Source: a virus. Taken from it: 25,886 bases of DNA. Where the stretch lies: IMG/VR virus record IMGVR_UViG_3300047548_000719, positions 1 through 25,886 of that record; one strand, 5' to 3'. Shown one piece after another: positions 87-24,513 of this stretch; position 1 is the stretch's first letter; each line of letters starts with the position of its first letter. The translations under genes and the position numbers were made by a program. A model generated the notes under the pieces. That model was not told the origin of the DNA, made no database searches, and was given only the letters and a program-made list of their open reading frames with translations.

Positions 87-94
87 ATAAATAT
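87..94 (-). promoter_or_regulatory. ATATTTAT box (candidate late promoter)
   Basis: On the minus strand the sequence reads TAA-ATATTTAT-AGTAT-ATG. TAA is the stop of the upstream 42-codon gene and ATG starts the next gene. It shares the ATATTTAT(A/T)AGTA pattern with six other gene-upstream sites in this window. The promoter role is inferred from position and from the late sigma factor gene in the window. Confidence 0.55.
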
Positions 95-223
95 TTATCT
101 TCCTTGTCCACGATAGTTCCTTTCTGATTTATCGTGTTTGTTATGTGATTTGTGTGCCTTTCCTTTTCTACGTTTACCGAAACTGATTTTCTGACTGTTG
201 GAACCACCTTTAGCTTTTGCCAT
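95..223 (-). CDS. Small highly basic phage protein (42 aa)
   Basis: An ATG at 223 opens a 42-residue frame beginning MAKAKGGSNSQKISFGKRRK and ending in a TAA at 95-97. It is rich in Lys, Arg, His and Gly and has no acidic cluster, membrane segment or cysteine, so nucleic-acid binding or a role as a small internal head protein is plausible. It lies 3 bases after the 307-codon gene and ends exactly where the next ATATTTAT box begins. Small proteins with a KGGS...FGKR...YRGQG pattern occur near portal genes of marine T4-like phages as I recall them. The function is unknown, but the compact packing between two coding genes supports it being real. Confidence 0.65.
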   Translation of the reverse strand: MAKAKGGSNSQKISFGKRRKGKAHKSHNKHDKSERNYRGQGR

Positions 224-226
224 GAC

Positions 227-1150
227 TTACTTGAATTTTTTAACGTTTTTGTTTAATTCATTAACCATGTCCTTGATTTTAGCAAGGGCTTTTTCAGTAT
301 GCATTTTATATTTAAGACCGCCTTCTGCTTCAGATAGTTCTTGTTTTAGGCGGCTTACATATTCAAATAGACGGTTGATCTCTTGTACCTTTTGTCTAAC
401 AGCACGAACAGCTTGATGGAACTGGTCAGACTTACCTCTAGTCTTAGTTTCAGTCTTGAATCTAGAGTAGTTTTCGTTTAATCCTGCGGCTTTAATGTCA
501 GCTCCAAATTCTTGATCTAGATCATGAGGATAAACGTCTGAAAGCGCGTCTATTATAGCGTTATATAGCTTTTGATTCTTGTCTCTGATCTTAGACAACA
601 CATATTTTACTCTCTCATAGTCTTGTTGAGTAAACACTTCGTCTAGATCTTCATCACCTCCAACATAATCTACATCAGTATAGTGCATAGAGAACTCTCT
701 ACTTATACCATCGATAGAAACGATTACGTGTGTTTTAGTTACGTCTTCTACAGTGCCATTCATACCATAGAACTGGTTGCCATAAGTTACCTTAATTCTA
801 TCTCCAGGCTCAAATGGGTTTATATTCTCATCAGTATCTTTGAACTCTTTTACAGCACTACTAAGCTCTTCAAATAACTGCTTATATATAAAACCACCTT
901 TTGATGGGCGGTTAGGAATAGATGGAGCATCTTTCCAACCCCACTTATTTTTCATATAAACTTTTGCTTTTCCAGCAGCTAATTTAGGCTCAACGTCTTT
1001 TACTTCTTTCTTAGGCTTCTTTTTGAATGCCTTGTTAGTTGCCATTTGCTCACCTGTACCAGGAGTAAAGGTTGCCCCTCCTACATTAGTCATAGAAGTT
1101 TCAGCACGTAGCTTCTGAGTAGCAAATTGATTGTTAAATGGCTTCTTCAC
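227..1150 (-). CDS. Putative head-assembly protein with KOW-like segment (307 aa)
   Basis: This gene of unknown function follows the portal and one other gene. The N-terminus (about residues 20-45) is Gly/Lys-rich and low in complexity. A segment at about 113-150 (PGDRIKVTYGNQFYGMNGTV and onwards) resembles a KOW/SH3-like barrel. The C-terminal third is helical and charged, suiting a coiled coil. LSEA near residue 272 fits the T4-type prohead protease site (L/I)-x-E/A. The start used is GTG at 1150, two bases after the upstream stop, which suits coupled translation; an in-frame ATG at 1093 is the alternative. A scaffold or internal core role is inference only. Confidence 0.6.
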   Translation of the reverse strand: MKKPFNNQFATQKLRAETSMTNVGGATFTPGTGEQMATNKAFKKKPKKEVKDVEPKLAAGKAKVYMKNKWGWKDAPSIPNRPSKGGFIYKQLFEELSSAVKEFKDTDENINPFEPGDRIKVTYGNQFYGMNGTVEDVTKTHVIVSIDGISREFSMHYTDVDYVGGDEDLDEVFTQQDYERVKYVLSKIRDKNQKLYNAIIDALSDVYPHDLDQEFGADIKAAGLNENYSRFKTETKTRGKSDQFHQAVRAVRQKVQEINRLFEYVSRLKQELSEAEGGLKYKMHTEKALAKIKDMVNELNKNVKKFK

Positions 1151-1152
1151 TA

Positions 1153-2001
1153 TTAGGCTTTTTTAAGCTCATCGATCAGATCGAAATATTGTAGAATTCC
1201 AGTTATAACCTCGTCTTTTATTGATTGATTTTCTTTGATAGGAGTAACAAATTTGAGCACCTCTTCTAGTTTGATCTTAACCACTTGGTCTTTTGACTGG
1301 TTTTTCAACTGAGTCAATTCTTCTTTGATAATATCAAGCTGATTGTTGAGATACACTTTCAGATTCTTGGTGTCACTGATGCTACCAATATACTCTTTTA
1401 GTACTGCTTTTTGTCTTTCAGACATGCCTTCGTACTTACTATTGAACTTCTCAACCAAGATCTTGTAGGCAAGAAGACGAATCTCTTTATCCTCTTTCAT
1501 GAACTCTTCTACTAGAGACTTTGGAGCCTTAGTATCACCTGCTGGTGTTTTGGTAAGATGCTCAAGAAGAGTGATCTTGTTTAGAATCAACTGTTTTGTA
1601 TCAACTGAAGGGCTGTTGTGTCCTTCAAATATAGTGTAAATAGAAGCAAATGGCTTGTAGTTTTCTATCTTAGCCTTAAAGAAATTGTCTAGATCGTAAT
1701 TTTTCTTGATCTCTTTGATCAAGTTGTACTTCAATTTGGCTATTTTAGCATGATCTAGCTTCTTGTACTGCTCAATAATTGTAGATATCAAGATCTCGGC
1801 CTTGGCTTCAGACAATTTAGGACTTGCTGAAAATGTGCTATAAAGACTGTACTCTTTACCTAACTCAGTATTAGTAAAATACTTTTTTAGGATTTTAACT
1901 GCCTTGGAGTCTTGATTATTAATTAGGTCAGATGTGGTCTGTCTAACTAATAGCTCGAATAAAATACCGGTATTACGATATTTGGAATGTTTTATTGCCA
2001 T
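1153..2001 (-). CDS. Conserved phage protein of unknown function, downstream of portal (282 aa)
   Basis: The protein begins MAIKHSKYRNTGILFELLVR and is almost entirely helical and Lys/Glu-rich, with no cysteine cluster, membrane segment or catalytic motif that I can see. I recall similar proteins (KHSKYxNTGILFELLVRQ) in marine T4-like phages next to the portal, so a structural or assembly role in the head is a reasonable inference. The ATG at 2001 is preceded at 24 bases by an ATATTTAT box in the 40-base gap after the portal stop, so it may be the head of its own late transcript. The downstream gene starts 2 bases after its stop. Confidence 0.6.
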   Translation of the reverse strand: MAIKHSKYRNTGILFELLVRQTTSDLINNQDSKAVKILKKYFTNTELGKEYSLYSTFSASPKLSEAKAEILISTIIEQYKKLDHAKIAKLKYNLIKEIKKNYDLDNFFKAKIENYKPFASIYTIFEGHNSPSVDTKQLILNKITLLEHLTKTPAGDTKAPKSLVEEFMKEDKEIRLLAYKILVEKFNSKYEGMSERQKAVLKEYIGSISDTKNLKVYLNNQLDIIKEELTQLKNQSKDQVVKIKLEEVLKFVTPIKENQSIKDEVITGILQYFDLIDELKKA

Positions 2002-2025
2002 AATTTTTGTACAAGTCGACTAGTA

Positions 2026-2033
2026 ATAAATAT
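2026..2033 (-). promoter_or_regulatory. ATATTTAT box upstream of the 282-aa gene
   Basis: The minus strand reads AGATATTTATTACTAG in the 40-base gap between the portal stop and the next ATG, 24 bases before that start. It is the member of the motif set furthest from its start codon. A small palindrome AGTCGACT lies between the box and the gene. The promoter role is inferred. Confidence 0.5.
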
Positions 2034-2041
2034 CTATATAT

Positions 2042-3955
2042 TTAATCTAAGTCCTCTTTGATATTGCCCTCACTTAAAAGATCAGACTCTTCAAAAAGGT
2101 TAACTTTTCTGCCTTTTTTACCACCAAACATCTTCTCAAGAGATCCTTTTGTTTTCAAGAACTCTGCCATTGTAGATTCAAGCGCTAATGGACTACCTCC
2201 TTTGAAGTTAGTTTTGAGACTATTCTCACCAGTTTCAGCATCTTTCTTATAAGCAGAGGCTCCTAAAGGATCACGACCGAATGCAGAACCATCTGTAGAG
2301 ATAATAGAAGTCTGTGTTTTAGGACGGCCTGGTCCTACTTGCTTCTCATCATATCCTTGTGGTACATTCAATACGGAATCTTCTTTACCGCCATATAAAC
2401 TAGCTATTTGGTGAGGTGTTCCATAAGCTTGTCCAGATTCTGCAGGATCGTTTCCTTCTTCTTGAATCTGTGCATATCTAAAGTTACGTTTCTTGTCTTC
2501 AATGATTTGATCTTCTAGCTCAGCATATTGATCTTCTGAGAAGTGGAAGATCTTATCGTACATGAAGTCGCGAGGTAAAATTCCTGCTTCCATTGCATTC
2601 TTAGCAAGATCGATCTTCTCTTTGAATAGAGCAATTCTCTCTTGGTCGTAAATGATAGATGGGTTAGTTAATGACAATGTAAAGTTAGCTGCACTTTCGT
2701 TAGTATATCCATGAGCATACAAATGCACTAGAGCTATCTTAGTTAACTCACTGATAACTATACGCTGTAATCTTTCAACAGTTCTAGCAAAACGAATATC
2801 TTCTGCAGCAAGTGTTGCTTTACCAGTTAGATCTTTTTCATAACCCATAAAAGCTTTAGGTATCTTAAGAGCTGCAAACAACTTCTCACGGAAGTAAGCA
2901 ACGTCTTCTATGCCGTTATAATCAAGACCTTTTGCAGTATCAATCTTAGTAGAGGTATCATTTCCACGAACAGGAATAAAAAAGTCCTCTAACAAATTTT
3001 GCTGATTGTATTTTAAGTTATAGTTACCAGTGTTAGGATCAATAAGAGGTGTTTTCTTCATCTTATTAATCATCTTTTGCATGTAGTTATCTACTTCACC
3101 TGGAGGAATGGCACCTACGTTTACGTAGAATATACGGCGTTCTGGTGCACGAACAATACGGTGAATCAACATCGCATCTTCAATCAACACATACTGCTTA
3201 AATAACTTACGAGCAGGCTCAAGATATGATCTACCATAAGGTAAGTAGTTAACATCACCAGTCAATCTAAAGTGAGCCATCTCATAGTTATCAAACCAAA
3301 CACCAGTATCACGATTTTGTTGTGAACTATATCCAGTAGATGAAGCTAATGTTGCATTAGGATCATATTTGAAACGAACCTCTTGAGGATTTTCTGGGTT
3401 ATAACCTTCTTCACGAATAATATTATAGGCAGAGAATGGGATAACGTTGTACACACCGTAGTTTTCAGCGATCTCTAACTTTAAATAGAAGTCGCCATAC
3501 TTACACATGTTACGAATCCAACTCCATAAGTTAAATTCAATGTTAAGTACAGAATAGAATAAGTTGTAAAGTAGCTTTTGTATGTTCTCATCAGAAGATC
3601 TGATTTGTAGAACTTCTCCTTGTTCATTCTTAAGTGTACATTCGTCAGCTACAATATCTAGAGCAGAACAACAGATTGCATCTGTGTCCATAGCATCATA
3701 GTCAGCATAGATTTGTACACGAGCTGATTGATAGTTCTGTGATAAGTTTAGATTAACACCATACGCAGTAGATGTTGTATAAACCTTGTTGAATCTATCA
3801 ATTAATGAGTTTGTTTGAATGACACCTGAACGTTGTATAGTATCAGTGTCAATTACCTTTAACATATCTCCACCTTCATTACGAATAATTACGTCTGTAG
3901 AAAACAAACGTCTCAAGGTTGAGAATAAGTTATTTTGTTTTTGTTGTTCTGCCAT
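2042..3955 (-). CDS. 20: Portal (head-tail connector) protein, gp20-like
   Basis: The portal forms the dodecameric ring at the unique head vertex through which DNA is packaged and ejected. The protein has the T4 gp20 layout: an N-terminal region with YADYDAMDTDAICCSALDIV, a clip/stem region with many aromatic residues, a segment KDLTGKATLAAEDIRFARTV typical of T4-like portals, and a long polar tail. At 637 residues it is longer than T4 gp20 (about 524), mainly through a Gly/Lys-rich C-terminal extension. The extension ends with LLSEG, which resembles a prohead protease site. It starts 6 bases after the terminase stop, so terminase and portal are adjacent with no tail sheath or tube gene between them, unlike T4. 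Confidence 0.93.
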   Translation of the reverse strand: MAEQQKQNNLFSTLRRLFSTDVIIRNEGGDMLKVIDTDTIQRSGVIQTNSLIDRFNKVYTTSTAYGVNLNLSQNYQSARVQIYADYDAMDTDAICCSALDIVADECTLKNEQGEVLQIRSSDENIQKLLYNLFYSVLNIEFNLWSWIRNMCKYGDFYLKLEIAENYGVYNVIPFSAYNIIREEGYNPENPQEVRFKYDPNATLASSTGYSSQQNRDTGVWFDNYEMAHFRLTGDVNYLPYGRSYLEPARKLFKQYVLIEDAMLIHRIVRAPERRIFYVNVGAIPPGEVDNYMQKMINKMKKTPLIDPNTGNYNLKYNQQNLLEDFFIPVRGNDTSTKIDTAKGLDYNGIEDVAYFREKLFAALKIPKAFMGYEKDLTGKATLAAEDIRFARTVERLQRIVISELTKIALVHLYAHGYTNESAANFTLSLTNPSIIYDQERIALFKEKIDLAKNAMEAGILPRDFMYDKIFHFSEDQYAELEDQIIEDKKRNFRYAQIQEEGNDPAESGQAYGTPHQIASLYGGKEDSVLNVPQGYDEKQVGPGRPKTQTSIISTDGSAFGRDPLGASAYKKDAETGENSLKTNFKGGSPLALESTMAEFLKTKGSLEKMFGGKKGRKVNLFEESDLLSEGNIKEDLD

Positions 3956-3961
3956 TTTATA

Positions 3962-5554
3962 TTATATTAACCAAGTTAAATCTTGTGATTCTCCACCTTG
4001 AGGAGTAGATATATTCATACTCCAAGGGTTTTGATTATAAACATTGTTTGCATTGTAAGCAACACTAGTGTCTTGTGTTCTAGTGAAACTATTTAATGCT
4101 GCATAAGTTAAGTTCTCGGCCGTCTTACGATACCTTAAACTTGTCTCTCTCAAAAACATTGCAATACCAAATGACATCACTAAGTCGTCATTATATGATT
4201 GCATGGCTTGAGCCTTACCATTTTTCCAAATGAAAACTCTGAGCTCTTCAAGTAGTCTAATTGATCTAATTACAACCACTTTATTCTCTACAAAGTCTCT
4301 CATCTTTTCTACAACTAAAGGTCTGTTTTGAGTTGTCATTGAAAACCCAGGAACCAAACCTGATTGTGTGTTAAACTTATCCACATATTTAGTAAAATCC
4401 ATTGTTGAATCTTGCTTATAACTATAGTGGATATTAGTGTAACCTTTTTCTGTTATCGATTGAATAACGTCCCAGCCTATGTTTGCATTTTCAACTACTA
4501 ACAAAGCTGTGTTATATTCAGAGGCCACGCTTAACAATATGTTAGCATATTCTCTTGTATCGACTTGTGACTTATATTCAGCTACTTGAGTCAAAGCCTC
4601 TACATCAATAACATGAAATGCAGAGTAGTCATTTCCATCACCACGAGCAACGTCAGCTACTACCGCATAATATTTTGTAGGATCTGGGTATTCAAAGATC
4701 CATAATGCTTTATCAAGACCTCTTCTCTCAATTGGCTCTTGCAACATATTCTGTTCGTACCATACTAATATGTCTGGTTCGATAACAGTATTACCAGATG
4801 TTGCAAAGTCACAATCACACTCTTGAGCTGCATTTCTTTTACCTAACGTTCTATCTTGTTCGTCACGCCAAGCTTGATCACGTTCTGGGTGTACAGTCCA
4901 AGGTAGAGATATAGGCAAAAACCTGTTTTCTTGCTCTTGCGCTAGTGTATATGTTTTGTGAAACCAGTTACCAACACCATTAGGAGTAGATAACGCAATA
5001 CATCCACCACCAGTAGCAAGTGTTTGTTGAGCCGCTGTGAATATCGTTTCAATATTATCGATAAACGCAGCCTCATCTATTACTAGAAGAGATACAGCTT
5101 CAGAACGACCAGCATCACCAGCAGCTGATACCGCTTTAATTTGTGAACCGTTCGTCAACCTTAAACTCAACCTATTATCTTCAGACGCTCCTATTCTAAG
5201 CCATGTTGGTAAGTTCTGGTAAGCAAATCTCACCTTAGTCACCATGTTCTTAGCTGTTTCTTGCTTAGTTGCAATAACAAGAACGTTTTTATCTTTGTTA
5301 AACAACATCAACCATAATGAATAAGCAGATACTAGAGTAGATATACCTAGCTGTCTTGACTTATTGATTATAGAATAGTCATGCTTTTGAAACAATTTCA
5401 AAACCTTCTCCTGAAACGGATAGAGATTAAAGTATTGCCTTCCTCTTTGTGGGTGCTGGATCATGTAGTACTTCTTCATGAAGTATACTGGATCTGTTGC
5501 ACATTTGACAAACTCCTCTTTTATCCTTTCTTTTATATTCTGTTGTTCAGACAT
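3962..5554 (-). CDS. 17: Terminase large subunit, gp17-like (TerL)
   Basis: This is the ATP-driven motor and nuclease that packages DNA into the prohead. The ATPase domain shows a Walker A-type loop KSRQLGIST (residues 65-73), Walker B LLVIDEA (156-162) and coupling motif ALSTPNG (187-193). The RNase H-like nuclease domain shows DVARGDGNDYS (301-311), VVEN (353-356) and NDDLVMS (455-461), giving the expected acidic residues. T4 gp17 has SRQLGKTT; here Ile stands in place of Lys in that loop, a variant I recall from marine relatives rather than a sign of decay. The length of 530 is slightly below T4 gp17 (610). It is followed closely by the portal gene. Confidence 0.95.
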   Translation of the reverse strand: MSEQQNIKERIKEEFVKCATDPVYFMKKYYMIQHPQRGRQYFNLYPFQEKVLKLFQKHDYSIINKSRQLGISTLVSAYSLWLMLFNKDKNVLVIATKQETAKNMVTKVRFAYQNLPTWLRIGASEDNRLSLRLTNGSQIKAVSAAGDAGRSEAVSLLVIDEAAFIDNIETIFTAAQQTLATGGGCIALSTPNGVGNWFHKTYTLAQEQENRFLPISLPWTVHPERDQAWRDEQDRTLGKRNAAQECDCDFATSGNTVIEPDILVWYEQNMLQEPIERRGLDKALWIFEYPDPTKYYAVVADVARGDGNDYSAFHVIDVEALTQVAEYKSQVDTREYANILLSVASEYNTALLVVENANIGWDVIQSITEKGYTNIHYSYKQDSTMDFTKYVDKFNTQSGLVPGFSMTTQNRPLVVEKMRDFVENKVVVIRSIRLLEELRVFIWKNGKAQAMQSYNDDLVMSFGIAMFLRETSLRYRKTAENLTYAALNSFTRTQDTSVAYNANNVYNQNPWSMNISTPQGGESQDLTWLI

Positions 5555-5557
5555 ATA

Positions 5558-6256
5558 TTATTTTATGAGTATACCAGCTACCAAGCCTGCTACTCCAAAT
5601 ATAACTTTTTCAAATTTACCTATCTTCAACTTCCAATTTTTCTTTTTGATGTCTGCTTTAAGACCATCAATTTGGATTTTGTAGTTCTTAGCTTGTTCTA
5701 CTCTTTCTTTATCGATAGTAATATAGTTATCTTCTTTCTTTCTAAGATCGATGATAATTTTATCTTTATTCTTAACTAGAGTATCAAGACCTTGTATAGT
5801 GCTGTCTTGTGTTAATATAATCTTTTTATTTGTAAAAGATTGCATAATATCCACAGTGATTTGCTTAGATACTTCTAAAGGAAGATGTGTTGTATCTTCA
5901 CTCAAACTAGCAAATTGTACTGGGTATGCTGCCATAAAAAAGCTATCAACTTGAGTAGGTTTATAAGCTAAAGCTTTTTCAGCGTCTTTTAAATCACCTT
6001 TAAGAATACTAACCTTATCTTTTAGAACGTCTACACGATCAGTTAAATAAGTGTTTGTTTCTTCTAACAGTTGAATTCCAGATTCTAGACTGTCATTCTG
6101 TTGCTTAATAGAGTCAATACGATTTTCTAAAGAATCGATCTTATGTTCGTATGGTTTAGTATCGAAGTCAGAATTACACCCTTGGTATAAAAATAACCAA
6201 TAAATTAAACCAGCTAGTAATACTACTAGAGTTATCTTAGTCCATTGGTTCTTCAT
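5558..6256 (-). CDS. Membrane-anchored coiled-coil protein, spanin-like candidate (232 aa)
   Basis: An N-terminal hydrophobic segment (ITLVVLLAGLIYWLFLYQGC) is followed by a long heptad-rich coiled coil (EHKIDSLENRIDSIKQQNDS and onwards), a globular middle, a second charged helix and a short hydrophobic C-terminus (VIFGVAGLVAGILIK). An inner-membrane spanin or another envelope-spanning lysis factor is the simplest reading. The Cys after the first segment (YQGC) only weakly resembles a lipobox. I chose ATG 6256; an upstream in-frame TTG at 6280 would deepen the overlap with the preceding gene from 20 to 44 bases. It ends 3 bases before the terminase start. No lysin gene is visible nearby. Confidence 0.6.
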   Translation of the reverse strand: MKNQWTKITLVVLLAGLIYWLFLYQGCNSDFDTKPYEHKIDSLENRIDSIKQQNDSLESGIQLLEETNTYLTDRVDVLKDKVSILKGDLKDAEKALAYKPTQVDSFFMAAYPVQFASLSEDTTHLPLEVSKQITVDIMQSFTNKKIILTQDSTIQGLDTLVKNKDKIIIDLRKKEDNYITIDKERVEQAKNYKIQIDGLKADIKKKNWKLKIGKFEKVIFGVAGLVAGILIK

Positions 6257-6593
6257 CTGTGTCAGTTTCAGGTGTTTCAATTTGTTGAATCTGCTGCTTT
6301 AATAGCTTCAGACGATCAGGCATATTTCCTACCTCTTTTTTATAGGCAGCAATATCCTTTAGTTTCAAAGAGCCATCTGGTCCTTTTACAGCATGTTTAG
6401 CTAGGACAGCTTTTACTTTCTTTTGAAGGTCAGCATACTCTTGCTTCTTCTTGTAAAGATCACGAAAGCCTTTTTCGGTCTTTTTAAGATCTGCTTTAGA
6501 AGGTCCTTCATCATCTATTCCAATATCTTCGCGTATCTTGGAGATAATGGTAAGATTGTTCTCGGTTAAATACTTTTCTAAGTTAAATGACAT
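6237..6593 (-). CDS. Small helical phage protein with capsid-leader-like N-terminus (118 aa)
   Basis: From ATG 6593 the protein starts MSFNLEKYLTENNLTIISKI, then a Lys/Glu-rich helical body with coiled-coil character and an acidic C-terminus (TDTDEEPMD). The start was chosen over an open frame beginning at 6623 because an ATATTTAT box (6610-6617) would otherwise lie inside the gene, whereas from 6593 it lies 16 bases upstream, as at other genes. The first ten residues (xxLEKYLTE) loosely match the short leader seen on other genes of this block. The function is unknown. It overlaps the next gene by 20 bases. Confidence 0.6.
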   Translation of the reverse strand: MSFNLEKYLTENNLTIISKIREDIGIDDEGPSKADLKKTEKGFRDLYKKKQEYADLQKKVKAVLAKHAVKGPDGSLKLKDIAAYKKEVGNMPDRLKLLKQQIQQIETPETDTDEEPMD

Positions 6594-6609
6594 GGTCGTA
6601 CATTTACTT

Positions 6610-6617
6610 ATAAATAT
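6610..6617 (-). promoter_or_regulatory. ATATTTAT box upstream of the 118-aa gene
   Basis: The minus strand reads CAATATTTATAAGTAAATG just after the stop of the 83-codon gene (6620-6622) and 16 bases before the chosen ATG at 6593. It matches the ATATTTAT(A/T)AGTA pattern of the other boxes except for one inserted A. The promoter role is inferred. Confidence 0.5.
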
Positions 6618-6619
6618 TG

Positions 6620-6871
6620 TCAATCGCCTGAATCTTCTTCATTGACAGTCAATGCACGTCTAAATGGTCTAGAAAGCTCTAACCATTTGTCATATCCATA
6701 TTTTACACCGAAAATAAAATACTCGTCAGGTCTGGCCTCAGACTTAGGGTATTGTACTGCTGCTACTTTTGTGGAGTGGGGTTTGATTACCCCTTTGTCA
6801 TCTTCGTAGACATGGAAAATGATCCCTTCAACTGTTTTAATGGTTCTGTATATAGCGTCACGCTTTGCCAT
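6620..6871 (-). CDS. Hypothetical protein (83 aa)
   Basis: This is a compact, mixed-charge protein starting MAKRDAIYRTIKTVEGIIFH with several aromatic residues (YFIFGVKYGYDKW) and an acidic end (NEEDSGD). There is no cysteine, membrane segment or known motif. The ATG at 6871 follows a 49-base gap containing TATATTTAG, one base different from the ATATTTAT box, 15 bases upstream. It lies between a 532-codon gene and the 118-codon gene. I do not recognise the family; a small folded beta-rich phage protein is all that can be said. Confidence 0.55.
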   Translation of the reverse strand: MAKRDAIYRTIKTVEGIIFHVYEDDKGVIKPHSTKVAAVQYPKSEARPDEYFIFGVKYGYDKWLELSRPFRRALTVNEEDSGD

Positions 6872-12430: not shown

Positions 12431-13348
12431 TTATTTTTTATATAGATATACTGGTTCTCCTAATCCGTGTTTGTCTTTACCAACCATTTTATAAACTGTA
12501 GAAATATCAAAGCTAGATGGGTCAAAATCTCCTACTTTAGTACCTTCTCCTGATTGTTTAAAATCTACTCTTGCAAAAATCTTTTTGTCTCCATTAAGAT
12601 CCCAAAAGCCATGGCTAACTTTGTCATACAACTTTTTTGCTTTAGGAAATTTTGAAAGAAGCGTCTCTTCATCATGAATGTCTTTTACAAAACTAATATC
12701 CATTTTTTTATCGTCAGCTTCTTTCAACTCTTTTTTATCTTCTGCCTTTTCTATTTGCTTTTTACTCTTCTCTATTCTCTCTAACTTAGTCATTAAATCA
12801 TCGATCTGTGTAGCGATCTTAGCGATGTGCTCTTTATGCTTACTAGCACTTTTAGGATCATCTTTAGCTAGAGTCAAATGCTCTTTACGCTTCTTTTCAA
12901 GCTGATCAATTGCCTTTTTGATTTTACCAGATGTAGTATCTTTTTTTTCTTCTAGAGCAATTGCCTCATCACAATACTTTTGGTATGCTTCAGCTGCAAT
13001 TTGTTGTGCATCTTCAGCAGTAGCATGAACAGAATGAACATCATTCATGTTTATATTAAGAGGCTGGATTCCTTCAAGTGGATTGATCTCACATACCATT
13101 TTCTCAGCAGTCATACCATCCATTGGCTTACGAACCAAGAACATAGTTGGGATAGCCATCTCTTCTTTCTTTACTTTCTTAGGAAGCCCTTTATGTTTAG
13201 TAGAAGCAAAGTCTTTTACATCTGACTTTTTCATTGACTTAGCCATTTGTTGAGCCTTTTTAGAAGCTTTTCCTGGTTTTAATTGACCAGTTTGTAGGGC
13301 GTGAACAATACCCATCAATCTTTGCTGCTGTTTAGATGTAGCTGGCAT
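12431..13348 (-). CDS. DUF3008-like N-terminus fused to a coiled-coil protein (305 aa)
   Basis: Residues 1-55 (MPATSKQQQRLMGIVHALQT, AQQMAKSMKKSDVKDFAST, KHKGLP) look like the DUF3008 type of small basic protein that is usually free-standing. Here it continues into a mid domain (about 65-135), a strongly charged coiled coil (about 135-215) and a C-terminal domain (about 220-305, GFWDLNGDKKIFARVDFKQS). LKEADDKK near 213 resembles an (L)-x-E/A cut site. The ATG at 13348 is 17 bases downstream of an ATATTTAT box that is embedded in the last codons of the upstream gene, so it probably starts a late transcript. The role is unknown; a head-internal or scaffold-like part is possible. Confidence 0.6.
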   Translation of the reverse strand: MPATSKQQQRLMGIVHALQTGQLKPGKASKKAQQMAKSMKKSDVKDFASTKHKGLPKKVKKEEMAIPTMFLVRKPMDGMTAEKMVCEINPLEGIQPLNINMNDVHSVHATAEDAQQIAAEAYQKYCDEAIALEEKKDTTSGKIKKAIDQLEKKRKEHLTLAKDDPKSASKHKEHIAKIATQIDDLMTKLERIEKSKKQIEKAEDKKELKEADDKKMDISFVKDIHDEETLLSKFPKAKKLYDKVSHGFWDLNGDKKIFARVDFKQSGEGTKVGDFDPSSFDISTVYKMVGKDKHGLGEPVYLYKK

Positions 13349-13364
13349 ATACTTTTAAGATTTA

Positions 13365-13943
13365 CTAATAAATATCTTGCTTCTTCCATTCGTCTATCTT
13401 CTTTTTGAGCTCTTCATAGATAGCAGATTTGTCTCCACCAGACCAAGATTCAATGTCTCCTTGCTCAGAAACGAATGTATCTTTATCTTCAAGCCATGAA
13501 TCTAGAGCTCTTTCGAAGTCTTCTAGGCTAGCATTCTTATTAGAATTGAGAATGTTTTTCTCATAGTCTTCGTACTTACCTTCTGCTTTAAGCTTAGTTT
13601 CCATATCAATCACACAATCAAGACACATCTGGTGAATAGCGAACATCTTCTTGTTAAGCTCGTTTACCTTCATAGGTTTCTTACAACTTGGGCAAGAGAT
13701 AGGAAGTATCGCTAAATGTTTGAGTTTGTCTAATTTAGTAATAGATTGTTTGATGCCATTTTTTATGGTCCACTTCTTGCCATCTTCTTCCCAGACATCA
13801 CCTTCTTTATGGTCTTGTATTTTACTTTCCCAGCCTGCTTGGACTTGGGTTCTATCACCAGATTTACCAGTGATTAGGTTTCGCATTCTTTGAACATCAC
13901 GTTTCGAAAACTCTTTCTTGAGTGTTGACTCATTTGGTATCAT
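13365..13943 (-). CDS. Zinc-finger-like conserved phage protein (192 aa)
   Basis: An N-terminal basic part (FSKRDVQRMRNLITGKSGDR) is followed by a small beta segment (EGDVWEEDGKKWTIKNGIKQ) and a probable zinc site, CPSC at about 94-97 paired with CLDC at about 117-120 (ISCPSCKKPMKVNELNKK, HQMCLDCV). The C-terminus is acidic and helical. I recall this combination (SKxDVQRMRNLI.GK, GDxWEENGKxWTIKNGIKQ) from marine T4-like phages with no assigned role. The last codons (GAT ATT TAT TAG) double as the ATATTTAT box for the next gene. Confidence 0.65.
   Translation of the reverse strand: MIPNESTLKKEFSKRDVQRMRNLITGKSGDRTQVQAGWESKIQDHKEGDVWEEDGKKWTIKNGIKQSITKLDKLKHLAILPISCPSCKKPMKVNELNKKMFAIHQMCLDCVIDMETKLKAEGKYEDYEKNILNSNKNASLEDFERALDSWLEDKDTFVSEQGDIESWSGGDKSAIYEELKKKIDEWKKQDIY
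13368..13375 (-). promoter_or_regulatory. ATATTTAT box embedded in the end of the zinc-finger gene
   Basis: The minus strand reads AAGATATTTATTAGTAAATC, so the box encodes the final Asp-Ile-Tyr and abuts the TAG stop of the upstream gene. It lies 17 bases before the ATG at 13348 and matches the consensus including AGTA. Conservation of the box inside coding sequence would be a strong test of function. Confidence 0.5.
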
Positions 13944-14854: not shown

Positions 14855-15441
14855 TTCATTATCTTTATTAGTCTACCAAACACATCTTTGGTAACTCCTT
14901 TATTATATGCAGCATCTGGGATAAACTTCTCGAACTCTTTTACATTTCCTTGCTTAACTGCTGCACGCATTTGTGTTGCTGATATTCTACCAAACTGATC
15001 AGGTATTACTTCTTTTCTTACTCGATCAGGGAATCTTTTTTGTATAGCATCAAAGTAACCTAGACCTTCTACCTCTTCGGCTCCACCTGCAACGTAGACA
15101 GGATCAACTTCACGATTAGCGTCTAGAAAAGAAAAAATATCTTTGATAGGTGTTGACTCTTTTGATATCTCTACCTTGATCTTAGGGTTAGGCTCTGCTT
15201 TCAAGTACTCTGTCCATATATAAAGAGAGTCTTCTGGTGTTATACCAAACTTAGTAACATTAGATATAATAACATAGACCTTATTAATATAAGGCTTAGA
15301 TGCTAGATATTTTGCAGCTTCAAAGTGACCTTTATGTGGTGGTTTGAATTTGCCAGGATAAAGGCAAGGTCCAACATCTGGTGATGCCTCTCTTAAAATA
15401 TCTTCTGCGATTTGTCTACCTATGTGGTCTATATTGATCAT
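14851..15441 (-). CDS. HxGH nucleotidyltransferase (NMN adenylyltransferase/cytidylyltransferase-like) with leader
   Basis: The N-terminus MINIDHIGRQIAEDILREA looks like a longer version of the block's leader and ends LREA. The enzyme follows: GKFKPPHKGHFEAAKYL with the HxGH site (KPPHKGH, ending at 39) and ISATQMR (153-159), the second nucleotide-binding motif. These mark the nucleotidyltransferase superfamily that includes NadM-type NMN adenylyltransferases and cytidylyltransferases; the exact substrate cannot be read from the sequence. It is overlapped by four bases on both sides (ATGA) by the P-loop kinase and the peptidase-phosphatase, which implies a co-translated enzyme set. A link to NAD metabolism or to end-processing is inference. 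Confidence 0.8.
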   Translation of the reverse strand: MINIDHIGRQIAEDILREASPDVGPCLYPGKFKPPHKGHFEAAKYLASKPYINKVYVIISNVTKFGITPEDSLYIWTEYLKAEPNPKIKVEISKESTPIKDIFSFLDANREVDPVYVAGGAEEVEGLGYFDAIQKRFPDRVRKEVIPDQFGRISATQMRAAVKQGNVKEFEKFIPDAAYNKGVTKDVFGRLIKIMK

Positions 15442-16223
15442 TTGGAAATAAACGATTTTGCTTTAGTAACAGCTTGATTCATGTCTTGTACTTTCAACCT
15501 TTCAACATCTTTTTCAATCTTGTCAAATTGGCCAGAAAGTATGTCTATCTGCTTGTCTACCAACGCTTTAGACTTAGCGATCTCTTCAGGGCTTTTCTGC
15601 TTAGTAGGATCTTTTCTGAATGTTGATTTGAATTCTCCAGAAGATAATAAGCTCTCAAAGAACTCTTTCAACTTATTCTGCTTGAAAGCCTTTTCGAACT
15701 CACCAACCATTTTCTTCTCTTCATCAGACATAGTTGTCTGTACTAAAAAGAATTTATCGCCAAACAGCTTCTTATATGTTTCGATATTCTTGTAGATATT
15801 ATTCCAGCTACTTAGAACACCTACAGTTGGCACCTTTCTTTCTCTTTTGAAGTTGCGAAGGAAGCTAACAATAGGGTTAGAATAAACCATGACCATCATG
15901 ACCTCGTAGCCATTGTCTTGGATAGATTTGATCCTATCTACATTAGAAGCTGTAGTGTCATACAAGAAGTTCTTGCCACTTTTAATAGTATCAGGAAGGT
16001 CAATCTTGTCGATTCTGTTAGAAGCCTTGGCCAGATTATTATACATGTCAGACTCTGGATCTTCTACATATTTATCTGCATTTAACTCAATCCAGCCATT
16101 TTTTACTAGGTCTGGTCTGATTTGCTTAACAAAAGTAGATTTACCGACTCCGGCCCCGCCTGCCATTACAATAGCCTTCTTCTGGCCTTTCACCTCATTT
16201 AATAAGTCTAGTAGCTTAATCAT
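15438..16223 (-). CDS. P-loop kinase, zeta-toxin/polynucleotide-kinase-like, with leader (261 aa)
   Basis: The N-terminal MIKLLDLLNEV is almost the same as the leader of the gene at 10,387. Directly after it is a P-loop domain: Walker A GGAGVGKST (22-30), ELNADKYVEDPESDMYNNLA, and FLYDTTASN as the second-strand motif, all typical of zeta-toxin and PNK-like kinases that I recall from marine T4-like phages. The C-terminal 80 residues are Lys-rich helices. It could phosphorylate a nucleotide sugar, nucleotide or nucleic-acid end; the sequence does not decide. The ATG at 16223 lies 6 bases after an ATATTTAT box, and it is the first gene of a kinase, nucleotidyltransferase, peptidase-phosphatase cassette joined by ATGA overlaps. 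Confidence 0.8.
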   Translation of the reverse strand: MIKLLDLLNEVKGQKKAIVMAGGAGVGKSTFVKQIRPDLVKNGWIELNADKYVEDPESDMYNNLAKASNRIDKIDLPDTIKSGKNFLYDTTASNVDRIKSIQDNGYEVMMVMVYSNPIVSFLRNFKRERKVPTVGVLSSWNNIYKNIETYKKLFGDKFFLVQTTMSDEEKKMVGEFEKAFKQNKLKEFFESLLSSGEFKSTFRKDPTKQKSPEEIAKSKALVDKQIDILSGQFDKIEKDVERLKVQDMNQAVTKAKSFISK

Positions 16224-16229
16224 ACTACT

Positions 16230-16237
16230 ATAAATAT
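16230..16237 (-). promoter_or_regulatory. ATATTTAT box upstream of the P-loop kinase gene
   Basis: The minus strand reads TAA-ATATTTAT-AGTAGT-ATG, where TAA ends the nuclease gene and ATG starts the kinase gene. The arrangement is the same, stop codon included, as at 87-94. If it is a -10-like element, the transcript would be nearly leaderless. The promoter role is inferred. Confidence 0.55.
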
Positions 16238-17993: not shown

Positions 17994-18001
17994 ATATTTA
18001 T
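17994..18001 (+). promoter_or_regulatory. ATATTTAT box in the central gap (orientation uncertain)
   Basis: On the plus strand the sequence is AAATATTTATAAAAAAATTT, about 50 bases before the candidate structured RNA. On the minus strand it reads TATAAATATT, an exact T4 late box, 38 bases upstream of the primase ATG. Either reading is possible. The orientation found at gene starts elsewhere in the window favours the plus strand. Confidence 0.4.
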
Positions 18002-18045: not shown

Positions 18046-18250
18046 ACTAATGCCGGGTCTATTTGACTCTACTCCATAGCTTGGTGAGATTCCATGAGTG
18101 AGAGCTAGATCAAGTAACCTACAACGGCTACCAGGAGCTAAGACTAAGATATGCTTCAGGTATAAAAAGATAGTTAGAAGTGAAGGTTTAAAAGAATATC
18201 GGTAAATCCGACGGTCATAGTCCGCTAGGGCTTTTAAATATAAACTTCAA
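18046..18250 (+). ncRNA. Candidate structured non-coding RNA
   Basis: Inverted repeats nest in two domains. In the 5' domain GCCG (18052-18055) pairs with CGGC (18125-18128), enclosing TAGCT/AGCTA (18077-18081 with 18103-18107) and an inner TGG/CCA hairpin (18082-18084 with 18092-18094). In the 3' domain GAAG/CTTC (18182-18185 with 18245-18248) and TTTAAAAG/CTTTTAAA (18187-18194 with 18231-18238) enclose two small hairpins, TCGG/CCGA (18199-18202 with 18208-18211) and CGG/CCG (18212-18214 with 18222-18224). The base composition is richer in G and C than the flanks. TATATTG at 18033 might be part of a host-type promoter. No known RNA family was recognised. The strand is inferred from the plus-strand box and the downstream genes, and the ends are approximate. 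Confidence 0.45.
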
Positions 18251-18278
18251 ACAATAAACAGCGTCAACTTCCACTAGA

Positions 18279-18300: not shown

Positions 18301-18313
18301 ATAAAATTATTTT

Positions 18314-18460: not shown

Positions 18461-18463
18461 ATT

Positions 18464-18784: not shown

Positions 18785-18793
18785 ATTAACAAT

Positions 18794-18970: not shown

Positions 18971-18989
18971 TCTAAAAAAATAATAAGTT

Positions 18990-19616: not shown

Positions 19617-19627
19617 AACAAAATAAT

Positions 19628-19900: not shown

Positions 19901-19901
19901 T

Positions 19902-20654
19902 ATGGCAGATATTTTAGCCCAAGAAGAAGAGGTTCTCTTGACCAAAAAAGGTGAACCTAGAAAACGTAAGCCTAAGACCAAGAATAACTATTTTACTTCT
20001 GAAACTGAGGAAGCTATCCTAGAATATAGGAATACGCCTAATCAGGCAAAAAGAAATAAAATATACAACGAGAGGATTCACTACGGCTTCTACAAGCTAG
20101 TAGAGAATATTATCCATACGTTTAAGTTCTACTATACAGAAGTTGATAACATAGAAGATCTGAAGTATGAAGTGATCTCTTTTCTCTTGCAAAAGATAGA
20201 CCTTTATGATCAATCTAAAGGAAAAGCCTACTCTTACTTTGGAACTATTGCTAAAAGGTATCTTATTATCTACAACCAAAAGAACTACAAGAAGTTGGTG
20301 TCTAAGGCAGAGATTGGTGAGCAACATGACGACAATGCTTTAGTCAACTCAATCATAGTAAAAGAGCCAGAACCAGAGCTAGATAAGCTAGATATAGTCG
20401 AGCTTTTTATCAAACATGTTGACGACAACCTTCTAGATCTTTTCGAGAAAACAGAGGAGATGAAGGTCGCTGATGCGATCCTGGAGATATTCAAGAAGAG
20501 AGAAAACATCGATATCTTCAACAAAAAGGCTGTGTTTATCTATGTAAAAGAAATGACAGATTGCCAGTCTAATACGATCACCAAAGTGATCAAGAAGCTA
20601 AAAACCATCTATAAGAGTATTCTAGACAACTACCTTGAAAATCATGACTATTAA
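19902..20654 (+). CDS. 55: Late-transcription sigma factor, gp55-like (250 aa)
   Basis: It redirects host RNA polymerase to late promoters. The sequence carries the gp55-type core: TSETEEAILEYRNTPNQAKR (33-52), IHYGFYKLVENIIHTFKFYY (59-78), DLKYEVISFLLQKIDLYDQS (86-105) and GKAYSYFGTIAKRYLI (107-122), a sigma region 2-like promoter-melting unit. It has a basic N-terminal extension and a longer C-terminal part than T4 gp55 (185 aa). T4 gp55 works with the sliding clamp and gp33; neither is in the window. Its own stop codon abuts an ATATTTAT box driving the next genes, which links it to that motif by position only. The start is AATAATATG. Confidence 0.9.
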   Translation: MADILAQEEEVLLTKKGEPRKRKPKTKNNYFTSETEEAILEYRNTPNQAKRNKIYNERIHYGFYKLVENIIHTFKFYYTEVDNIEDLKYEVISFLLQKIDLYDQSKGKAYSYFGTIAKRYLIIYNQKNYKKLVSKAEIGEQHDDNALVNSIIVKEPEPELDKLDIVELFIKHVDDNLLDLFEKTEEMKVADAILEIFKKRENIDIFNKKAVFIYVKEMTDCQSNTITKVIKKLKTIYKSILDNYLENHDY

Positions 20655-20661
20655 TATTTAT
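20654..20661 (+). promoter_or_regulatory. ATATTTAT box between gp55-like gene and structural genes
   Basis: The plus strand reads GACTATTAATATTTATTCTAAAAG. The TAA within it is the stop of the sigma factor gene, and the box is 10 bases before the ATG at 20672. It marks the switch from the small regulatory genes to the tail and baseplate genes, as expected for a late promoter. The role is inferred. Confidence 0.55.
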
Positions 20662-20671
20662 TCTAAAAGTC

Positions 20672-21034
20672 ATGGAACTAGAGAAAGAAATATTCAAAGG
20701 TAAAACCATAGCTGACCTAGTAGAAGAGGTCTATAATAAGCATAAGAATCAGGACTCCACTATTAAGCAAGAGATCATGCGTCTTGCTGATATGATCGAA
20801 ACTCCTGGTGATGCTATTGTCATTGTACCATTATTAAAAGGATTCATGGATTCTAGCCTCAAGAATGATGAGGTGTTGATGAAACTCCTTACATTGTTCC
20901 AAAAGGCATCTGCCGAAGCCAAGAAAGAAGGAACAGAAGATAGTGGTATCTTAACAGAAAAGGATATCGAACAGCTATTTAGTGAGGTGTCCACTATAAA
21001 GATTAAAGATCCTAAACAACTACCTAGCGCATAA
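20672..21034 (+). CDS. Hypothetical protein, probably late (120 aa)
   Basis: An acidic, helical protein starts MELEKEIFKGKTIADLVEEV with no membrane segment, cysteine or known motif. It is the first gene after the ATATTTAT box at 20,654 and its stop overlaps the start of the spike-base-like gene as TAATG. This position suggests it is expressed late and coupled to baseplate proteins, perhaps as an assembly chaperone or a small structural part. I do not recognise the family. Confidence 0.6.
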   Translation: MELEKEIFKGKTIADLVEEVYNKHKNQDSTIKQEIMRLADMIETPGDAIVIVPLLKGFMDSSLKNDEVLMKLLTLFQKASAEAKKEGTEDSGILTEKDIEQLFSEVSTIKIKDPKQLPSA

Positions 21035-21939
21035 TGGCTAACGGATATATATTTGGTCCAGATTTTAATGCCGATAACGGCCAATCAGGAGGTCAATACT
21101 TCCAGATAGGTCGTGTCAAATCAATTGTGCTAGGCCCATACAAAGGGTCAACCCAAGAACGTGATCCAGATTATGGGAGTCCAATAGATATAGGAAAAAT
21201 AAAATATGAACTACTTTACTCTACGTTAGGAACGTCTAGGTCACAAGAAGTATCTGAACCGGCTTGGCCGATGTTTAGCTTTATGAGGCAGTACCCAGTA
21301 GTAAATGAGATAGTGTTAATATTAGCAGGTCCAACTGAAAAGTTAAATGATCGTGCTTCTAACCAACAGTTTTTCTACTTTCCTCCTTACAGTTTGTGGA
21401 ACAGGTCTAACCATGGTGCATTTCCTAACATGCAAGAGTATTCCAAGTTCTTGCAGCAGTATGTTAATATCCAAGGATATTCTGGGACAGCTACCTCAGG
21501 GTCACTTCCTCTAGGCTATACATTTGAAGAAAATCAGCAGGTTAGAAACTTGCAGCCATTTGAAGGAGACACCATCTTACAAGCAAGGTTCGGTCAATCA
21601 ATTAGGTTTGGTTCTACTGTTCCAAAAATGAAGACTAGTAATACCTGGTCTAACTCTGGAAAGAATGGTGATCCTATCACTATTATATTAAATAGTCAAG
21701 CAACATCTAGTCCTGCATTCAAATTCAATAATACCGTAGAGAATATAAATAAAGACGGGTCGGCTATCTATATGACTAGTACACAAGAGATCTTTTTAGA
21801 GGACATAAATAACTTCCCATTAAACTCATTTGGTACACCTATCACTCCAATATCGCAGCCTACATTAAGAGTACCGACTCCTCCAATTTCAAATGAGATT
21901 GTAGCTCCTGCAATTCAAGACCAAGCAAATATAGGATAA
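21034..21939 (+). CDS. Baseplate hub/spike protein, OB-fold-like (gp5 N-terminal-like candidate, 301 aa)
   Basis: The N-terminal 115 residues contain FQIGRVKSIVLGPYKG and YPVVNEIVLILAGPT, a beta-rich arrangement like the OB domain of gp5/VgrG spike proteins (xxGRVxxVVLG ... GExVxV). The middle holds VRNLQPFEGDTILQARFGQS and IRFGSTVPKM, then KNGDPITIIL, which I recall from marine T4-like phages as a spike-associated protein. A Pro/Thr-rich tail (TPITPISQPTLRVPTPPISN) would be extended. No lysozyme domain is present, unlike T4 gp5. It is coupled (TAATG) to the following beta-helical protein, with which it probably forms the central spike. The assignment is by motif impression, not alignment. 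Confidence 0.6.
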   Translation: MANGYIFGPDFNADNGQSGGQYFQIGRVKSIVLGPYKGSTQERDPDYGSPIDIGKIKYELLYSTLGTSRSQEVSEPAWPMFSFMRQYPVVNEIVLILAGPTEKLNDRASNQQFFYFPPYSLWNRSNHGAFPNMQEYSKFLQQYVNIQGYSGTATSGSLPLGYTFEENQQVRNLQPFEGDTILQARFGQSIRFGSTVPKMKTSNTWSNSGKNGDPITIILNSQATSSPAFKFNNTVENINKDGSAIYMTSTQEIFLEDINNFPLNSFGTPITPISQPTLRVPTPPISNEIVAPAIQDQANIG

Positions 21940-22376
21940 TGTTTAGACCAGTATTTCCATATAAAGGTAACCAAATAATTCTAACTAGTGATAGAGTAAC
22001 TATCCATTCTGGGAAGGATGCTATCTTTTTGTTTGGAAAACAAGCTGTAGGTTTATCTTCTACTAAGACAGTTAATCTAGATGCGGGAGAAAAGATCATT
22101 TTAGCAGCTCCTGTTATTGAATTAGGAAATAAAGCCGAAGCCTTAGGTGAGCCAGTTGTTTTAGGAAACACACTTAACCAACAACTACAAGCTATATTAA
22201 GTGCTTTATCAACAGCAGGAACTATGTTAGCTCAAGTTTCAACATCAAGCCCTGGTTCTAGTATGCAAAGTATAGCATCTGCTGGAAAAATATTGAATCA
22301 AGAGGCTAGTAGGATAGCTGAAATATTAAATCCAGGTGCATCTATTATATTGTCTAAAAATACATTCACTAGATAA
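21939..22376 (+). CDS. Beta-helical spike-tip-like protein (gp5 C-terminal-like, 145 aa)
   Basis: Short repeating strands (GNQIILTSDRVTIHSGKDAI, FLFGKQAVGLSSTKTVNLDA, GEKIILAAPVIELGNKAEAL) look like the triple-stranded beta-helix at the tip of contractile-tail spikes, which punctures the outer membrane. A helical Ala/Gln/Ser-rich C-terminus follows, with LGNTLNQQLQAILSAL. It lacks the PAAR-type Pro-Ala-Ala-Arg and His metal residues, so it is not clearly a PAAR cap. It is coupled by TAATG on both sides. Since the OB-like part is in the preceding gene, the functions of T4 gp5 appear to be split. Confidence 0.6.
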   Translation: MFRPVFPYKGNQIILTSDRVTIHSGKDAIFLFGKQAVGLSSTKTVNLDAGEKIILAAPVIELGNKAEALGEPVVLGNTLNQQLQAILSALSTAGTMLAQVSTSSPGSSMQSIASAGKILNQEASRIAEILNPGASIILSKNTFTR

Positions 22377-24484
22377 TGGCAGATCCAAGATTTTCAGTTG
22401 GCAACGCTCCTTTACCAAGAACTGGTACTGCTAATGTAGTAAATTCAGCACCGACTATAGGTCAAGCTACCGTAACTACTGCTGCTGCAAATCAAAGAGC
22501 ACAAACAACTCAAGCTGCAGGAACTACTCAAGCAAAAATAAATCAAGGGTGGGTTAATTTTGGAAGCGATAGATTAAACATCAACACTACTACTGCTAAA
22601 GGTCTAGAAAAAGCATTGGGCACAATAGCCAAATTTATTATCAAAGTTCAAGGAGATATAAATAAAATCCTATACGGAAAGTCTGCTCCTAGACAAGATA
22701 CAAATCTAATTAAGAGGCTATTAGATAAAGGTATATTAAACCTACTAACTGATATTGCATCTATAGACTTTTGTAATATATTAAACTATGCTCTAAATCA
22801 AGTCGGTGATGGACAAAGGTTTGACCCAACAAAACCTCCACCAGAAAATGATGTAATTGCTAGAAAAAAATGGCAGTTACAAAAGAAAGCATACGATACT
22901 CAACAGTTTATAGACAAATATTATAGAGATTATGCAGACAATAATAACCCACAAAGTAAAGTGGGATTGTTTGTTCTAATTCAACAAATAAAAGGATCGT
23001 TAGAGAGCACTCTATTAAGTCCAACTGAGGGGATAAATGATCCTCAACTAACTAGTAACTTTCCTCAATTAGGACTTGCTAACAACTTTTTCCAAAATGG
23101 TTTTGGTATACTTAACAGGTATACTGATGTTAGACAGATCAATAATGAAGATGTACAGAGGTTAATTTCATTAATAGATAATATAAGACAATACTGTATT
23201 ATAATTCAAGGGTTGAATAACCCAAAGAATGCCATTGGCTTAATAGATAGTTCATTAAATGGTGCCATTCAAAAAGAGTTAGCAGACATATCTAAACTAA
23301 TTATTAATCCAGCAGTTGCAACAAGAGTTTTACGTGATATATTAAGAGTTGCTAATAACATTAATACTATTGGTCAAAAGATATTAGGATATATAACAAC
23401 ACTCCAAGTTATTGTAAAAATAGGCATTTTATTAATCAGAATATTCAACATAGTTACAGCATTTATATTGGCATTACCTGCACCTGCCATGTTCTTGACT
23501 TCTGGAGTTATCACAACATTTTCTGATACGGTTCAAACAAAACTTAAAGAAAAAGGTACTAAAAAGTTATTAGAAAGATTAGAGCAAATATCATTTATTA
23601 TAAATTTAATTGCAATAGTTGTTACTAGTCTATTAATAGCTATTCAAAATATCATATTAAAATTAAGAGTAATTCTTGTAAACCTAGAGAATTGTTCGAA
23701 TGTAGATCCAGATTTGGTAAACGATCTACAGAACACAATAAAAAATCTAAGTAATACAGGAGACAAATTACAATCATTCTTAGATCAATATAATAACCAA
23801 CAACAACAATCTCAAAGTAGATTTGGGCAATATACTATTCAAATAGTTACGGAAGAAGTTGTTGATGAAGGGATCAATTTAAAAAGAAGATATGGTATTG
23901 CCAAAGACTCTAATGGGTATCTGGTAGTACAGTCCACTCCTACATTTGCTTCACTAGATCTAATAATAATTAATGAGGTAAAAGCCCTTTTAGTTTCAAA
24001 AGGTTTAGTATCTTCCAACATAGCTTCTTTAACTGCTGAAGAAGAAGTGATTGTTTTAGATGCCGCTCAAATATTAGGAGATGATGAAATAGATATTGCT
24101 AATATAAATGTAACTCAAGAAGATGTGGAAACTGTGGCAGAACAAGATGAAGAGTTAGGTTTAAGTTCGTTTATCAACAATCTTCCTGGAGGTAAGGCAC
24201 TTAGACGTAGAATGAGAAGAAAAATGATCGAAAATGCAAGAAAACTAGGAACTACACTAAAAGCAACCGATCCTCAAGGAAAATATAGCTCTGGTATCAT
24301 TAAACAGCAGTCTAATGAGGCTAATAAATTAGAAATAGAAGACTTACAAGACAAGATCAAGACTTGGCAAAAAGAGATTGCAGTTGCTGCTACACAAGGT
24401 CCTATTGGTCTGGCTATTGTAAGAGATAGAGTAAAAAAGATCCAGGCAGCAGAAAAAAGGATAAAAGAACTACAAAAAGGATAA
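22376..24484 (+). CDS. Large structural protein with central hydrophobic helices (tape-measure/hub candidate, 702 aa)
   Basis: The N-terminus (1-55) is Ala/Thr/Gln-rich and low in complexity. Residues 70-330 are helical. Two strongly hydrophobic stretches lie at about 339-380 (TLQVIVKIGILLIRIFNIVT, LALPAPAMFLTSG) and 405-436 (ISFIINLIAIVVTSLLIAIQ). The C-terminus (about 650-702) is a charged coiled coil ending RIKELQKG. Tape measure proteins and hub proteins that enter the host membrane have this mix, and the position between spike and gp25 fits a baseplate or tail-core role. No enzymatic motif is visible. T4 gp29 (590 aa) is a possible functional counterpart, but this is inference. Confidence 0.55.
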   Translation: MADPRFSVGNAPLPRTGTANVVNSAPTIGQATVTTAAANQRAQTTQAAGTTQAKINQGWVNFGSDRLNINTTTAKGLEKALGTIAKFIIKVQGDINKILYGKSAPRQDTNLIKRLLDKGILNLLTDIASIDFCNILNYALNQVGDGQRFDPTKPPPENDVIARKKWQLQKKAYDTQQFIDKYYRDYADNNNPQSKVGLFVLIQQIKGSLESTLLSPTEGINDPQLTSNFPQLGLANNFFQNGFGILNRYTDVRQINNEDVQRLISLIDNIRQYCIIIQGLNNPKNAIGLIDSSLNGAIQKELADISKLIINPAVATRVLRDILRVANNINTIGQKILGYITTLQVIVKIGILLIRIFNIVTAFILALPAPAMFLTSGVITTFSDTVQTKLKEKGTKKLLERLEQISFIINLIAIVVTSLLIAIQNIILKLRVILVNLENCSNVDPDLVNDLQNTIKNLSNTGDKLQSFLDQYNNQQQQSQSRFGQYTIQIVTEEVVDEGINLKRRYGIAKDSNGYLVVQSTPTFASLDLIIINEVKALLVSKGLVSSNIASLTAEEEVIVLDAAQILGDDEIDIANINVTQEDVETVAEQDEELGLSSFINNLPGGKALRRRMRRKMIENARKLGTTLKATDPQGKYSSGIIKQQSNEANKLEIEDLQDKIKTWQKEIAVAATQGPIGLAIVRDRVKKIQAAEKRIKELQKG

Positions 24485-24505
24485 AACCAAATATATTCAG
24501 GTAAA

Positions 24506-24513
24506 ATATTTAT
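24506..24513 (+). promoter_or_regulatory. ATATTTAT box upstream of the 147-aa gene
   Basis: The plus strand reads GGTAAAATATTTATAAGATATG in the 34-base gap after the 702-codon gene. It is 5 bases before the ATG at 24519, the same distance as at the box at 87-94. It would start a transcript carrying the wedge genes. The promoter role is inferred. Confidence 0.55.

Follow-up and report, generated by a model that had tools for sequence, protein, structure and literature searches.

A likely new variant of the T4-type late promoter, and its gp55-like sigma factor, in Flavobacterium-type phages

The stretch of viral DNA analyzed here (IMG/VR record IMGVR_UViG_3300047548_000719, 25,886 nucleotides (nt), hereafter the window) is part of a T4-related myovirus genome, with genes for a terminase, a gp20-type portal, gp25-type and gp6-type baseplate proteins, a DnaG-like primase, an exonuclease and a gp55-like late sigma factor. 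Within it, the octamer ATATTTAT lay ahead of packaging and baseplate genes. It was present in 11 copies against 3.4 expected, a number reached in none of 100 dinucleotide shuffles, and seven of the copies, all in the coding orientation, lay no more than 30 nt ahead of a gene start (chance P about 4e-10), at distances of 5, 24, 16, 19, 6, 10 and 5 nt from the start codon. A preliminary description of the window had listed these seven boxes and proposed a diverged late promoter of the gp55 type; all seven were present on the strands that it gave, with only the fourth spacing, which it had put at 17, in need of correction. The copies that it had placed in the central gap and inside two genes were also found, but one at 91-98 on the plus strand had gone uncounted. 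The extension (A/T)AGTA that it had attached to the octamer was exact at two window sites only and was not conserved in relatives, where the only conserved positions after ATATTTAT were the first (A or T) and the fifth and sixth (purines).

Using the terminase as the query, the closest cultured phages were Flavobacterium phage immuto (56% identity) and Mel-JY01 (52%); the terminase of LR756508, a 484 kb uncultured phage, was 44% identical, and at least 600 stretches in IMG/VR encoded relatives. Six relatives were analyzed whole, namely contigs of 162, 180, 166 and 57 kb together with immuto and Mel-JY01. Genes were called mechanically, and in each relative ATATTTAT ranked first or close to first among the octamers enriched over the 40-45 nt before genes, with an enrichment of 20-30 fold in five and 7 fold in Mel-JY01. 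Within 60 nt upstream of genes, the ratios of coding to antisense-only occurrences in the six were 34:5, 35:1, 33:2, 15:0, 19:1 and 21:2. The same pipeline run on T4 recovered TATAAATA across most of the genome, with 20 sense and 0 antisense copies, and because this is the coding orientation, the orientation given by the pipeline is correct. The motif search over relatives that the preliminary description had named as a check thus returned both enrichment and a coding-strand bias, and a motif model placed a site at about 20% of genes in most genomes. Directly after the stop codon of the gp55-like gene, the box was retained in about 80 of 85 relatives though the flanks had diverged; its first base was often the final A of that codon, and the rest of the 85 included near-copies. 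Around 163 sites, the region from -45 to -11 held no more than about 0.06 bit of information, and no conserved -35 element was present in it. Terminator-like hairpins were located just upstream of 31 of 302 boxes versus 15 of 291 controls (p=0.02).

The start-site signature was examined at 200 dereplicated sites with the ATG at least 14 nt from the box. The fifth and sixth bases after the box were purines in 88% (175/200) and 85% of the sites, respectively, against a background of 57% (p=5e-21 and 1e-17), and with one site per gene family the fifth base was a purine in 59 of 66. If the fifth base is taken as +1, ATATTTAT spans -12 to -5, while the T4 late box TATAAATA occupies -13 to -6 (PMC2988020). 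From this alignment we infer that NATATTTA sits in place of TATAAATA at -13 to -6, the only change being AA to TT at -9/-8 (T-ATAAATA in T4, N-ATATTTA here); the T4 consensus itself does not occur at this place, since these two bases differ, but the register and direction are common to both. The preliminary description had regarded the box as reversed relative to T4. A reversed T4 promoter was rejected on the basis of the strand bias, the start-site signature and the T4 control, which gave the direct orientation and register of T4 itself, and the resemblance on the opposite strand arises because ATATTTAT is the base-by-base complement of TATAAATA.

In immuto, the late boxes could be compared with a distinct, host-like promoter of the early genes (TTG...TATATTTAGGTAT). 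Boxes ending in ATATTTAG[G/A]TA were located in the early gene region, and 21 of the 22 carried TTG at position -33, whereas this triplet accompanied 5 of 19 late ATATTTAT boxes in immuto and 31 of 305 in the pooled set. Eleven of the 19 late-type boxes, compared with none of the 17 early-type boxes, were upstream of genes within the virion block (p=1.5e-4). The early-type promoters of immuto also shared a long consensus of their own, AGTTGC followed by a spacer and TTC.TATATTTAGGTATcaataattaaaa, which is far longer than the host sigma-A promoter.

Structural analysis was carried out on the 250-residue gp55-like protein, with a model predicted from 40 aligned sequences at a predicted local distance difference test (pLDDT) score of 78. 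The model contained a sigma region-2 fold (approximately residues 28-135), a flexible linker and an extra C-terminal helical domain (160-247). After re-alignment, the best structure among the Foldseek candidates was T4 gp55 in the promoter complex (7d7c_F, Z 9.9, root-mean-square deviation 3.5, 121/137 residues), and the remaining matches were other sigma factors. Aligned by profile with eight gp55 proteins from T4-type phages, the family scored P=7e-5; searching solved structures with the sequence of the sigma factor returned a chance match only, and comparing that single sequence with T4 gp55 lacked power. In T4 gp55, A-12 stacks on Y97, A-9 touches N13 and H95, and A-8 bonds to T99 (PMC7892883; numbering from PMC2988020). 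The Y97 column was Y in all 44 family members, and the N13 column was T in all 44. The T99 column, which was T in 8 of 8 T4-type phages, was G in 42 of the 44, Q in immuto and S in Mel-JY01, while the H95 column varied among T4-type phages too and was uninformative. The trio of N13, Y97 and T99 is thus kept in part, in a pattern consistent with the changed box, as the bases kept or changed in the box correspond to the residues kept or changed in the sigma factor.

The start codon lay 1 to 59 nt from the box, and the number of sites rose abruptly at a distance of 4 nt. Weighted by gene family, the distances were bimodal, with 6 sites at gaps 0-3, 10.1 at a gap of 4, 7.0 at a gap of 5, and a dip at 8-11 before a peak at 14-17, compared with a smallest gap of 14 in T4. 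About one box in eight was close enough for the predicted mRNA start to fall at or next to the AUG. At gap-4 sites, the base before the ATG was a pyrimidine in 29 of 29 cases (17 of them C), compared with 56% (8% C) in other genes (p=7e-8), and in 12 of 12 gene families; among the 10 gap-5 sites, 7 had T before the ATG. For these boxes to yield leaderless mRNAs, transcription would have to start at the A of AUG with a pyrimidine at -1. On these sequence patterns, a leaderless class of late mRNAs, absent in T4, is probable, and the very short or missing 5' leaders suggested in the preliminary description gain support from the gap distribution and the box-anchored purine signature. In host flavobacteria, leaderless mRNAs are few (5.5% in F. 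psychrophilum, PMC9723704).

Within the window (Table 1), the A of the ATG at 81 is likely to be the +1 of the 87-94 box, which would place it in the leaderless class, and a leaderless start is likely at the gene behind the 24506-24513 box. The ATG nearest to the 6610-6617 box, 6 nt off, belongs to a short and out-of-frame reading frame, which suggests that the in-frame internal ATG is the true start of its gene. The function of the copy in the central gap is doubtful.

Table 1. Copies of ATATTTAT and related genes in the window (ORF, open reading frame; predicted +1 is the fifth base after the box)
Feature	Position	Strand	Remarks
Late-promoter box ATATTTAT	87-94	-	gap 5 to ATG; T before the A of the ATG at 81
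Box ATATTTAT	2026-2033	-	gap 24; predicted +1 at 2021, leader about 19 nt; gene 1153-2001
Box ATATTTAT	6610-6617	-	gap 16 to in-frame ATG (MSFNLEKYL...) within ORF 6237-6623
Box ATATTTAT	13368-13375	-	gap 19; predicted +1 at 13363; gene 12431-13348
Box ATATTTAT	16230-16237	-	gap 6; predicted +1 at 16225, leader about 2 nt; gene 15438-16223
Box ATATTTAT	20654-20661	+	gap 10; predicted +1 at 20666; first base shared with the gp55-like gene (final A of its stop codon)
Box ATATTTAT	24506-24513	+	gap 5; T before the A of the ATG at 24519; gene 24519-24962
Copy of ATATTTAT	17994-18001	+	A/T-rich divergent central gap; no late gene in the 60 nt that follow
Copy of ATATTTAT	91-98	+	overlaps the 87-94 box within the palindrome ATAAATATTTAT
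Intragenic copy of ATATTTAT	10454	-	
Intragenic copy of ATATTTAT	16068	+	
Portal protein, T4-type (gp20)	2042-3955	-	
Terminase large subunit, T4 gp17 type	3962-5554	-	query used to find relatives
gp55-like late sigma factor, 250 residues	19902-20654	+	
C-terminal domain of the gp55-like protein	20367-20651	+	
Baseplate wedge gp25-like gene	24962-25375	+	downstream of the 24506 box

The enrichment, strand bias, linkage to virion genes, initiator signature, gap distribution and changed sigma pockets all support the diverged gp55-type late promoter of the preliminary description. ATATTTAT is very likely (probability about 0.87) the late promoter of a large group of Flavobacterium-type T4 relatives, and together with its sigma factor a new variant of the T4-type system. 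In the proposed mechanism, ATATTTAT would act as the -10-like element of late promoters in this myovirus lineage, a cultured member of which infects Flavobacterium, and would be read by the host RNA polymerase with the phage gp55-like sigma factor in promoters with no conserved -35 element. The change of AA to TT at -9/-8 would have co-evolved with the loss of N13 and T99, their readers in T4, whereas Y97, which reads A-12, was kept. With a box 4-5 nt from the start codon, the start of transcription would coincide with the A of the AUG or adjoin it, giving a leaderless mRNA; the other boxes would give short leaders, typically about 10-15 nt, in a host lineage without Shine-Dalgarno use.

Several observations weigh against this late-promoter assignment. 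In immuto, 8 of the 19 late-type boxes preceded non-virion genes, and the minority of late boxes with TTG at -33 exceeded the 14 of 305 found at a control offset, so that some of them may be mixed promoters. The excess of upstream terminators was modest, and the 29 gap-4 sites came from about 12-14 gene families, one of them repeated many times. For the sigma factor, Foldseek alone gave no significant match (best E 0.08) and the Pfam sigma-2 match was weak (best 0.0039), so the assignment to gp55 is based on the structure re-alignment and the profile comparison; Z values below about 13 are common for helical folds according to the structure-alignment tool. In addition, the more distant gp55-like gene in LR756508 had no box in the 77 nt after it.

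The box could be a variant of the host sigma-A promoter, with the G of the -7 element TAnnTTTG changed, that is used by the unmodified host polymerase without any phage sigma factor; TATATTTA resembles TAnnTTTG (PMC6847099, PMC9723704), and the early promoters of immuto have TATATTTAG with TTG upstream. This is very unlikely, as the late boxes do not show the Bacteroidota sigma-A pattern (-33 TTG/TTTG with -7 TAnnTTTG), having T in place of G at -5 and mostly no TTG at -33, the two promoter flavors separate early from virion genes in immuto, and the position of the box is tied to gp55. Still less probable is an mRNA-level signal, which the preliminary description had kept as its alternative, either an element that enhances translation or a processing site with cleavage 4 nt downstream. 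In favor of such a signal, the box is nearly always on the coding strand near start codons, and Flavobacterium start contexts are A-rich and of the non-Shine-Dalgarno type. Against it, the spacing to the start codon is unfixed and bimodal, whereas the purines at the fifth and sixth positions keep a constant distance from the box; in addition, the box often comes after a terminator or shares bases with a stop codon, and the sigma pocket residues differ for exactly the changed bases. A ribosome signal at a fixed distance was ruled out by the spacing distribution.

The late promoter could also exist with no leaderless class, if transcription of the gap-4 and gap-5 genes started further upstream or their true start codons lay downstream. 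The small number of gap-4 gene families and the start codons, which are predictions, speak for this possibility; it was nevertheless judged unlikely in view of the abrupt onset at a gap of 4, the invariable pyrimidine before the ATG and the similar N-termini of the gap-4 proteins in relatives.

The proposed late promoter resembles that of T4 in the orientation and register of its box, the lack of a conserved -35 element, the gp55-type sigma-2, the conserved A-12 with its Y97 pocket and the placement ahead of late virion genes. It differs from T4 in the two bases at -9/-8, the replaced N13 and T99 pockets, the extra C-terminal sigma domain and box-to-ATG gaps down to 4. The box also varies slightly between T4-type phages such as KVP40, 44RR, S-PM2 and Aeh1, and the published Aeh1 variant alters -13/-12 (PMC2988020), whereas the present lineage alters -9/-8; in cyanophage S-SM1, NATAAATA was found 5 times sense and 0 antisense, with no ATATTTAT box. 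With the Bacteroidota sigma-A promoter (TTTG / TAnnTTTG), the proposed promoter shares an A/T box whose TTT core lies roughly as far from +1, and a host-like form serves the early-type promoters of immuto, but the late boxes have no G at -5 and mostly no -33 element. The late promoters of phiKZ (TATG, with the start at G; cited in PMC5312081) likewise have an element very near the start point, but are read by a phage multisubunit RNA polymerase, unlike the gp55-type sigma factor here. In Rhodothermus phage RM378 (NC_004735), TTATTTAA(A) was enriched upstream of genes, 9 sense versus 3 reverse, with the nearest ATG 6 nt downstream, and is possibly a late box of its own with short leaders.

No account of a ATATTTAT late promoter in phages was found in the open-access literature. 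Such a promoter would show that T4-type late transcription reaches into an abundant lineage of aquatic phages, and would provide a natural experiment in sigma-promoter co-evolution, in which two bases and their T4 reader residues changed while a third pair was kept. It predicts leaderless late mRNAs in hosts without Shine-Dalgarno initiation, and makes readable the late regulon of immuto and Mel-JY01, whose gp55 homologs are annotated as hypothetical proteins only.

The C-terminal domain of the sigma factor was conserved and was predicted alone with a pLDDT of 87. Its structural search gave no clear match (best Z 5.6), including none to sigma-4 or gp33, the gp33 genes themselves not having been searched for, and a gp55-gp33 fusion was therefore set aside except as a speculative case. 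In that case, which is unlikely, the protein would be a natural single chain of a gp55-like sigma-2 and a second polymerase- or DNA-binding domain replacing gp33, working without a T4-type clamp and giving rise to many leaderless late mRNAs; a fused late sigma factor had not been found in nature according to a 2010 review (PMC2988020). The clamp-free part leans on the relatives with family A DNA polymerases and on the clamp results: no match to the clamp models PF02916, PF09116, PF00705 and PF02767 was obtained in five relatives, unlike T4 with its gp45 clamp, although Mel-JY01 has annotated clamp-loader genes, so a diverged clamp may be missed.

The DNA polymerase was of family B in two relatives (contig G003 and Mel-JY01) and of family A in three (contigs G001 and G002 and immuto), with the same late box; the replication module was swapped among them while the late promoter persisted. 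In its record, Mel-JY01 (PP395634) is a Microcystis phage; by its gp55-like protein and ATATTTAT boxes, however, it belongs with Flavobacterium phages, and its true host may be a bacterium within the Microcystis culture. The central divergent gap of the window also contained a conserved non-coding element at 18067-18275 (+), shared by at least 18 relatives at 71-82% identity. With no Rfam match, a fold z-score of -2.2 and compensatory changes at four pairs across 15 sequences, this element is probably an undescribed structured phage RNA.

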